From contig CANRAR010000001.1 in the NCBI GenBank assembly GCA_947628675.1, forward strand, positions 124,001 through 188,000: 64,000 bases of DNA. Direction: 5' to 3'. The stretch comes from an uncultured Clostridia bacterium (GTDB lineage Bacteria > Bacillota > Clostridia > Christensenellales > Borkfalkiaceae). The notes under the pieces were generated by a model. That model was not told the DNA's origin, ran no database searches, and saw nothing but the letters and a program-made list of their open reading frames with translations. Below, piece by piece: positions 26,843 to 50,542 of this stretch (position 1 is the first letter of the stretch; each line of letters starts with the position of its first letter). The position numbers were made by a program, and so were the translations under genes.

Positions 26843-26871
26843 TTGACAATTTTTCGTAGAAAGAGTATTCT
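26843..26871 (+). promoter_or_regulatory. Promoter of the large secreted protein gene
   Basis: TTGACA-17-TATTCT. Confidence 0.75.
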
Positions 26872-26923
26872 TTGTATGCGTGATAAAAGTTATTCATGCA
26901 AAATACACCGCAAGGAGTACGCT

Positions 26924-29900
26924 ATGCTAAAAACAAAAATCGCAATTATTCTTCTCTCGGGCGCATGCGCCCTCACCTCGGCGACGGCAATTGCCGGTTG
27001 GTGCATTGCCACGGGGGGGGGGGTGGGACTGACAAGATCCCGCCGAGCGTAAGCGGCGTCTCGACCACCATTTCTACGAACAAGGCTCCTGACGAGCTCA
27101 CCGCAGAAAACGCGATCTATGCTTTTCTGAAAAAACAGAGCGAGCTTGAAAGCTATGAGATCACGACGAATGGGACTGCCGTCGCCAATCTCATGGGCTA
27201 CACGCAGGAGATCCACAACATTACGTTCAAAAACGGGGAGGATTTCCTCAACCAGGCGTCTTCCGATTCCGCCCTTGTCAAGATGAAGCACCAATCCTTC
27301 TCCAAGAACGGCAAGGTTGTGTACCGCAACGATTTCAACGGCGAAATGAGCGTTGCGACCAAGGAAGAATATAAAAAAATTTACGGCTTTACGGCGGACG
27401 AGATTTCGCTCGGCGGCTATATCGTCAATCCCAAGACGCTTCGCTATGCCGTCCTCGAAAAGACGGAGGGCGACGAATTTACCTTTTACATGCGCCTTAC
27501 GGGGGATCTTTCGGTCGCAAATAACACGGCGACGGAATCCTCCTCGGTATATGTCCGCCTGCAAACGCAGGCGTACGGATCGCTCGACAACGTTCCCGCG
27601 TTCTCCGATGTGGATATGTATCTCACGGTGAAGAAGGACTGGACGCCCGTCTCCTACACCTCATCCTGCTCGTATGAGTGCAAGAAAGGGGTGAAAATGA
27701 GCATCGCGCAGACTCTCACCTGCACCTACTCCAAAGTGAACGAAGTAGTTGAGATCCCCGACGTCGCCGCATTCAACGAAAAGATCGGCTCCGAGCCATC
27801 GGCGGTACGTCCCGGTGCGTCGATCCAAGATCCGTTCACGCAACTTGCGGCCGCATTCGGCAACACGATGGAGAATGGGAACACGCTCTCCATGCCCGTC
27901 TCTATCTCCCTCGCGCTCTCGGAGAAGCCCCTGACCCTCGGCGGCGATCTGGAACTGAAGATCAAAGAGGATGCGTTGGAGAGCGGGGATCTCTTCGGTG
28001 CGTTAGCGCTCCGTTTGGATTTAGACCTTTCCTCCGTTCCGCTTATTTCGGGCTTTGCCGATACCCTCACGGTGCGCTATCCCGGAGATAAACAGCTTTT
28101 CCTTATGCTCAATGACCGTTCGCGGGGAACGGACAACATTTTATTTACCTATCCCATCGATCTCGGTAAAACGCTCTCCTCGCCCTCGGCCGATCTTTCC
28201 TCGGGCGATCTCGGGCAAATTTTGGCGGAGTATGTGGAGATCGGAGCCTCGGACACGGGATATTCGATATCGCTCAAATCCGCGCTTCTTAACAAGCTGA
28301 ATACATATATCGGGGACTTTGCGGCGAAGGCCGAGGCAACGCTCAAAGATGAGGGAGGCTATGTACGCTCTCTGCTCGGCATGGAGTTTAGCGATCTTAC
28401 GGTGGAACTCAAAGGCAAGGAGAAGATCGCGGAGCTTGCGCTTGTTCTCGAAGGGGAACCCCCCGCCAATGTCACGCAGGGCGAAAAAATCGGAGTGTGC
28501 CTCGACGTGGGGCTATTGTCCCGTGAGGATGTAAATATGCTCTCGGGCGCCTTCGAGGGCGAATTGCAGCTCCGTCTCAACCCCGCCGCGCTCTTGACGG
28601 GCGATTATTATGCGATCGCCGAGGCGCACCTTCATCTCGATCTCTCGCCCGCCGGGGCGGTACTTCAGATGGTCGGAACGTTCGCGCCCGCAGGGAGCCT
28701 GCCCGCATTTGTGGGACCCGATTTGAAAAACATGGACGTCTACTACACGGGAGACGGCATCCTGACGTTATCGTTCAACAATGAGGACAAGAATCCGTTC
28801 TTCGTCACGCAGGTGGATCTCAAAACCGTTCGGATGCCTGCCCTTCCCGAAAATTGGGCCTCTGCTCTGTTCTCCGAGTTCCGCTTTGAGAGGAAGGCGA
28901 ACGGGATCCTCTTCGCATTGGGCGATCCGCTTGTGCAGGCCATCAATGCGGCATATCAAAAGCTCGTGCAAACCGCAACGGACTATGTCGTTTCCTCTGC
29001 GGGCGACATGGGGGCTCTCGCCGGCGGGATCATCGGCAGTTGGTTGGGTGCGAAAATTTCCGGGGCGGAATTCTTCCTCGGCAAAAACGACGGCGGCAAG
29101 ACTCTATTCGACTTTACGATCAAGGGCATCCCCACATTTGTTTCGGAAGGCGACCCCGTTGAGATCTCCCTTCTCACGCTGGCCATGACCCATGCGGACA
29201 GACTTACAGACGAGGAGAAAGAGGCGATCCTTGCAGGCAAAGAGAGGGTTGCGCAGCTTTTGGCGGACGTGAAAAAAGCAGAAGAATATGCGGAAAAGAT
29301 CCAAAAGCTCATCGACGGCATGGATCTCACCGAGGCGGGAAGAGAGGCCTATGCCGAAAAGGTAACGGCGTTGAAGGAAGAGGCGGAAGCATTGCCCGCC
29401 AATGTGCAGACGCTTATTTCCAACCGGTCCTATTTGGCAGATACGCAATATGAAGGGAAAACGCTTCCCAAGCTGCTTATAACGCATACTCTGTACTGTG
29501 CGCGGGTGGATGCGTTTAAGAATCTTTTGCCCGGGAACGACAACTATGCAAGTTACGACGGGTGGGAAGCGTTGAATTCGATCTACGACAACGCGGACAA
29601 GACCCAAGAGTCTACGCTCGGCGTCGTTGTTCCCGCCGTCAAGGATAGTCCCGCCATGCAGACGGCGATCGGCGAAGCGCGCATCGGGAAATATATTGAA
29701 GCAAGAGACGCATACGAGAGACCGATCGTTGAGAACTTGAAAGGAAAAATCGCGGCGAGCCTTGAGAAGTATAAAAATGCAACGGAACAAGCCGATCGGC
29801 TTGAACTGCTCGGCGAGTTCTATGGGGAAGTCAAGCCGGCCTATGAAAAACTTTCCGCAGAGAAAAAGGCGGAGCTCGCAGAACAGTACAACGCGTACGC

Positions 29901-30486
29901 GGCGTTTACATATGAAAAGAATCTCGAAGGCTTGAAGAAAGCGTATGAGGACGTCAAGAAGTCGATGGAGGATTTGACGGCAAAGGCAGACGCTACAACA
30001 GATGAATTGCTCGGTATTGTCAAAACGCTTGTCTCCGTAAATACATGGAAAGGGGGTGTGGATCTTTGGCAAAGCAATGGTGGCGAAACGAAACCTTGGT
30101 TGAATTGGCTGAACGATGTTCCCGCAGAGTATCGCGCAATGCAGCAAGAGGTGTTAGGCTTGTATAATGAGATAAAACCAACCGGAAAGACGAGCTCGGA
30201 GCTGAGCATAGCCTTAAAGGAAAAGATCAAATCGTCGTTGACGGAGTTGGCGACCGAATTGGCAGAATACAAACAAGGCGATAATTTTAGTTTTACTTCT
30301 TTGTCGGATAAAGCACAGGCCGCAGAACTTCTCGAACAGCTCCATGAATGGCGTTATTTCCTCAACAGTGTCCTACCGACTTCGATAAGAACCGAGTTCA
30401 GAGGAGATGACACTTTGAAAGCGCTCATGAGCGATATCAAAAAGTACGAGGATGCACTTTCGGAACGCTTAACTTCGATGGGATAA
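26924..30486 (+). CDS. Large (~1190 aa) secreted/surface protein; signal peptide and body are in different frames across a G11 tract
   Basis: RBS aaggag, ATG 26924: MLKTKIAIILLSGACALTSATAIAGWCIATGGG in frame 2; body GGGGGTDKIPPSVSGVSTTIS... in frame 1 open to 30486. Confidence 0.65.
27013..27023 (+). repeat. G11 homopolymer tract
   Basis: cac-ggggggggggg-tgggact at the frame junction. Confidence 0.95.
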
Positions 30487-50310: not shown

Positions 50311-50542
50311 GAAACTGCTTTTATGAAGAGGAAAGACGTACGGTGCGCTGTTCGTAAGGCGAGAGAAAGAAACTGCTTTTATGAAGAGGAAAGACGTACG
50401 GTGCGCTGTTCGTAAGGCGAGAGAAAGAAACTGCTTTTATGAAGAGGAAAGACGTACGGTGCGCTGTTCGTAAGGCGAGAGAAAGAAACAGTTGTTATGA
50501 AGAGGAAAGACGTACGGTGCGCTGTTCGTAAGGCGAGAAAAA
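50311..50542 (+). repeat. 58-bp tandem repeat, four copies
   Basis: gaaactgcttttatgaagaggaaagacgtacggtgcgctgttcgtaaggcgagagaaa starting at 50311, 50369, 50427; divergent fourth at 50485. Confidence 0.95.

Follow-up and report, generated by a model that had tools for sequence, protein, structure and literature searches.

The locus described here raises the question of whether a run of 11 G residues, placed between the signal peptide and the body of a large predicted surface protein, operates as a phase-variable switch, as a preliminary description of the sequence had proposed, or whether the two reading frames were separated by some other event. The window (the whole stretch of DNA that was analyzed, 64,000 nucleotides in length) belongs to the draft genome of an uncultured clostridial bacterium of the family Borkfalkiaceae, and the gene lies on its forward strand. 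Direct reading of the sequence agrees with the anatomy given in that description, including a promoter-like site at 26843–26871 (TTGACA at 26843–26848, a 17-bp spacer devoid of poly-G and TATTCT at 26866–26871), a ribosome-binding site AAGGAG at 26912–26917 and an ATG at 26924. From this start a frame of 42 codons (26924–27052) reads MLKTKIAIILLSGACALTSATAIAGWCIATGGGVGLTRSRRA, contains a hydrophobic signal segment and ends at a stop codon (27050–27052) out of frame with the body. The tract itself consists of exactly 11 G (27013–27023), which in the body frame encode a Gly run that opens the mature body. This second frame (27013–30486) differs from that of the ATG, is open from 27013 for 1,157 codons up to a stop at 30484–30486 and represents a family of predicted lipoproteins of ~1,190 aa. 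An ATG at 26896, in the body frame, was rejected as an internal start for the body, as it has neither a ribosome-binding site nor a signal peptide. The signal-peptide coding sequence also holds a perfect 14-bp palindrome (GGGCGCATGCGCCC, window positions 26959–26972).

The body family occurs in 31 of the 103 genomes of the genus, mostly with 42–55% identity, and has weaker relatives elsewhere in the family; 72 of the 103 genomes have no close match to the body. Judged by its sequence, the gene belongs to an accessory family of predicted large surface lipoproteins. Searches for the function of the body gave nothing above the cut-off in Pfam, NCBIfam and PDB, the similarity to DUF6612 being weak. 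Orthologs with a readable start are uninterrupted and possess a lipobox with the Cys located ~26 residues from the start (for instance, MKKLKGIAVVLLSGACVLSASLGLAAC followed by GGNDESPKVENGESTTL...). The N-terminus of the window gene (MLKTKIAIILLSGACALTSATAIAG) evidently represents this same type of signal segment and aligns with the ortholog pattern MK..KIAIxLLSGACxLSxxAGLAAC. In the readable orthologs the lipobox Cys is in frame with the body, as in bacterial lipoproteins, whereas here the lipobox is absent from both frames (WCIATGGG in the signal frame, LVHCHGGGGG in the body frame). Poly-G at the junction was found in none of the orthologs inspected, and the 29 loci of the genus that were inspected show no G run longer than 6 near the N-terminus; the tract is not kept at the same place in these relatives, contrary to what was looked for in a coding contingency locus. 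A close paralog substituting for the gene in the same genome was discarded, a remote match (22%) being all that was found, and no second genome of this species was found in the genome collection searched.

The two frames can be joined by tract length alone, and the arithmetic of the earlier proposal (G12 or G9 instead of G11) is right. The resulting product (...AIAGWCIATGGGGG) would be full-length, as had been anticipated; however, it would lack the lipobox because a Trp precedes the Cys, at lipobox position -1, and it would carry three extra residues relative to the orthologs. It would have the length of the predicted secreted protein, but it would not be a lipoprotein like the readable orthologs. 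A change in tract length was consequently rejected as the sole cause of the break, and the case for a switch deduced solely from the tract is weakened by the missing lipobox.

Single deletions of up to 15 nt near the junction were scanned and compared with shuffled sequence. Removal of 27001–27011 (forward strand) was the only scanned deletion that placed the Cys of a canonical lipobox immediately ahead of the tract and at the distance seen in the orthologs; shuffled sequence did equally well in 2.7% of trials. These 11 bases, extra with respect to the ortholog spacing, break up the expected lipobox Cys codon. About 11 extra bp would account for frame, lipobox and length together, and better than tract length does; the support is moderate and not decisive, considering the 2.7% obtained by chance and a comparison based on orthologs that are ~50% identical. 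Since the extra bases would explain the three features at once, the in-frame length of the tract in the ancestor may have been 11 G. By eye, 27001–27011 resembles the adjacent GGCAATTGCC inverted, with one base missing, and this likeness makes a local template switch possible. A separate candidate, TGC-G9 placed right after the lipobox as a common coding switch, was dropped, as one in-frame case (L288) was seen in 30 loci read.

On these comparisons, disruption of a lipoprotein gene at the lipobox is a likelier account of the locus than switching by the tract. In the preferred reading, which is given a probability of about 0.5, ~11 bp would have been inserted within the lipobox (27001–27011) in the lineage of the window, leaving the signal peptide and the body out of register, so that the assembled genome would not express the accessory gene product as a surface lipoprotein. 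The G11 would have kept the phase relative to the body that it had ancestrally, when it would have encoded a Gly run right behind the lipid-anchored Cys. The tract would be one of the long G tracts (mode G9) that the genus and the family carry, a class whose main use would be in the -35/-10 spacers of surface lipoprotein promoters; replication slippage, presumably frequent, would add or remove a G and change the promoter spacing, by which expression may be switched or tuned.

Simple recent pseudogenization of an accessory gene, in which the G tract is of no relevance and nothing is switched, is also compatible with the 11-bp insertion and dispenses with the wider link to poly-G; it is considered rather unlikely. 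The absence of a close match in most genomes of the genus, an internal TGA in the ortholog of a relative (G225) and a modest excess of changed invariant residues (5.8% of them in the window body, within a range of 0–10% among 20) are compatible with decay, but no second lesion occurs in the 1,157 codons and two orthologs with an intact start lose more invariant residues. Divergence of the body from its orthologs is biased toward third positions, that is, it follows a coding pattern, and together with a 5.8% that falls in the range of intact orthologs it indicates that any loss would be recent. The preliminary description was correct in calling the downstream body intact, both for its lack of stops and for this coding constraint.

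The same intact and constrained body favors the classical coding contingency locus envisaged there (G11 OFF, G9 or G12 ON), the secreted product of which would be cut by signal peptidase I and would not be a lipoprotein. AxA-like sites upstream of the tract, the abundance and length polymorphism of poly-G in the lineage and other long surface-type ORFs of the genome that hold G9 in frame point in this direction as well; nevertheless, such a locus appears doubtful, as its tract is found in none of the inspected orthologs, its rejoined product would be devoid of the lipobox of the readable ones and 12 extra in-frame bp plus a slip would be needed, versus one 11-bp event. For the lineage as a whole, switching by poly-G is plausible, because tracts of at least 9 form a second mode in the genome and the spacer tracts of surface lipoprotein promoters, numerous in the genus, differ in length between near-identical genomes; for the window tract itself, not shared by the orthologs, the 11 bp are the better explanation. 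An assembly or consensus error at the homopolymer, the gene being intact in the real chromosome, would also agree with the intact body, with a draft assembly in 34 contigs and with the known unreliability of database records on the length of G tracts (PMC9187656). A miscounted tract alone, however, would not bring the lipobox back, and 11 inserted bp would be an unusual homopolymer error, which makes this explanation quite improbable.

Whatever the history of the frames, the tract is a rare one. Under a first-order Markov model ~0.06 G/C runs of at least 11 are expected per 64 kb, and no other G run in the draft genome (1.53 Mb) is as long as the G11, for which reasons the observation stands; it is also the sole run of G8 or longer in the window. 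A search by G8 alone gave 4 matches versus 4.2 expected, that is, nothing unusual. In 464 kb of the same genome, G/C runs of 5, 6, 7, and 8 amount to 954, 155, 15, and 5, followed by 9 runs of length 9, 2 of length 10 and the G11, so poly-G of at least 9 is a second mode. Runs of at least 9 are about as numerous as a third-order Markov model predicts, but the model expects many more of length 7–8; thus, the shape of the distribution and not its total is unusual. The whole genome contains 15 G8, 28 G9, 4 G10, and 1 G11. Loss of mismatch repair was ruled out as the reason for the tracts, as mutS is full-length in this genome, and its presence would lower slippage.

Long tracts occur in this genome at a particular location, since 12 of them sit between TTGACA-like and TATAAT-like hexamers (L032, L045, L053, L081, L082, L091, L093, L096, L097, L098, L099, and L100; one poly-C, the rest poly-G). 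Eight of the 12 genes that follow these spacer tracts encode predicted lipoproteins, several of the downstream proteins contain InlB repeats and Big_2 or Ig-like surface domains, and three of the lipoproteins constitute a paralogous family (tracts G9, G9, and G10). The layout was searched in other genomes with the pattern TTGAC-N0-12-G8-N0-12-TATWAT, the reversed pattern serving as control. In the genus, 245 promoter-like sites with spacer poly-G, mostly G9, were found in 75 of the 103 genomes, while the reversed controls gave 0; the C-tract version of the pattern produced ~20 matches in 14 genomes. In the family, spacer poly-G is present in 139 of 398 genomes and 9 of 18 genera, and in a wider genome collection the layout is scattered in other gut bacteria too, among the matches listed. 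The cultured Pumilibacter muris (CLA-AA-M08) has one site of this kind; with G111 it has a promoter string in common, but not the locus. The gene next to a poly-G promoter was called a lipoprotein in 18/30 cases vs. 5/51 for ordinary promoters with spacers of 16–18 bp (p = 4e-6; a crude sequence-motif test, the same for both promoter sets, with one locus per genome), and by this measure the genus promoter class is associated with surface proteins.

The spacing of these promoters is also distinctive. A 17-bp spacer was counted in 21 of 29 ordinary TTGACA/TATAAT pairs sampled from the genome of the window, as compared with 9/135 poly-G promoters in the genus and 4/56 in other genera (both among the matches listed, duplicate copies of G140 and G042 having been reduced by hand) and 8/124 in the wider collection, again among the matches listed. 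The distribution for poly-G promoters is bimodal, with peaks at 15–16 and 18–19 bp. This pattern fits loci that are one or two bases off the optimum, although another cause of the avoidance of 17 bp, such as an altered helix geometry of G tracts, is possible. A fixed protein-binding function was discarded for the poly-G, as its position ranges from right after the -35 to right before the -10 hexamer, and so was the rescue of short spacings by an extended -10, given that the spacing classes are alike (a small set).

Among the few pairs of close relatives examined for polymorphism in tract length, orthologous promoters in DNA that is 93–98% identical have one G as the sole promoter difference (G9/G10 in genomes G085/G279, G8/G9 in G217/G219). 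Paralogous promoters differ as well, with G8/G9 inside G155 and G9/G10 inside the genome of the window. Another genome, G140, encodes at least 13 paralogous predicted surface lipoproteins (L315–L327), each having its own poly-G spacer promoter and most of them beginning MNTKKWL...AACAPT...; exactly G8 was found in 12 of the 13 promoters sampled, nearly all with 15-bp spacing, and this uniformity counts against very frequent slippage in that genome.

Homopolymeric promoter tracts, in this case poly-A, accompany the variable lipoprotein family Vlp of Mycoplasma hyorhinis, and the porA promoter of Neisseria meningitidis was reportedly first studied by van der Ende in 1995. The latter contains poly-G in the -35/-10 spacer, and promoter-repeat switching is also described for Haemophilus fimbriae, Bordetella and M. 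hyorhinis (PMC3899988). In layout and length polymorphism the genus promoter class resembles, at the sequence level, both porA and Vlp. As in porA, poly-G separates the -35 and -10 hexamers of the promoter of a predicted surface protein and one base shifts the spacing; unlike porA, the class is clostridial, is represented at numerous sites per genome and belongs mostly to lipoproteins, and the G11 of the window is within a coding region and not in a spacer. The likeness to Vlp concerns paralogous surface lipoproteins with a homopolymer-spacer promoter each (13 sampled in G140, 3 in the genome of the window), while the differences are poly-G instead of poly-A, a different phylum and the nearly constant G8 of the G140 copies. 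In the sortase-pilus genes of Bifidobacterium breve an intragenic G-tract acts as an ON/OFF switch by slippage, which has been measured (PMC9187656). The window locus shares with that system an intragenic G-tract in a surface gene of a Gram-positive gut commensal, but its tract is absent from the orthologs and its break is better explained by the 11 extra bp.

Taken together, these data make it somewhat more probable than an even chance that a mostly uncultured family of gut Clostridia, which probably includes Candidatus Borkfalkia to judge by identical sites (L177 has the coordinates of G106:C34), switches its repertoire of surface lipoproteins by slippage of poly-G in promoter spacers. In the consensus genome, most loci would be 1–2 bases off 17 bp and mostly OFF, paralogous families would have a switch for each member and the coding G11 would be a side product. 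No papers on such tracts in Borkfalkia or its relatives were found in the open-access literature, a scope that left subscription papers mostly outside. If the proposal holds, surface variation in many common and mostly uncultured gut bacteria would rest on a DNA switch that is simple and can be counted, a device also used by some pathogens, tract length would decide how surface genes and "pseudogenes" are called in genomes of this kind, and the idea could be examined directly from tract-length counts in existing metagenome reads. The genus-wide spacer tracts are of more interest than the window locus and worth pursuing; the window gene alone, a lipoprotein gene apparently broken at its anchor site, is a modest matter.

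Other sequence features were observed in the same genome. G9 occurs in frame inside the long ORFs of L047, L057, L095, L096, L101, and L102 (each near position 1501), which may be coding switches. A dispersed palindrome, consisting of GCGCAGTT, C6-8, a centre of 2–3 bases (TA, TAC, or A/AT-like), G6-8 and AACTGCGC, is found at L113:161, L116:4793, L122:17072, and L126:9226. Within the window, a repeat that includes TTATGAAGAGGAAAGACGTACGGT occurs four times at intervals of 58 bp (positions 50321–50516).
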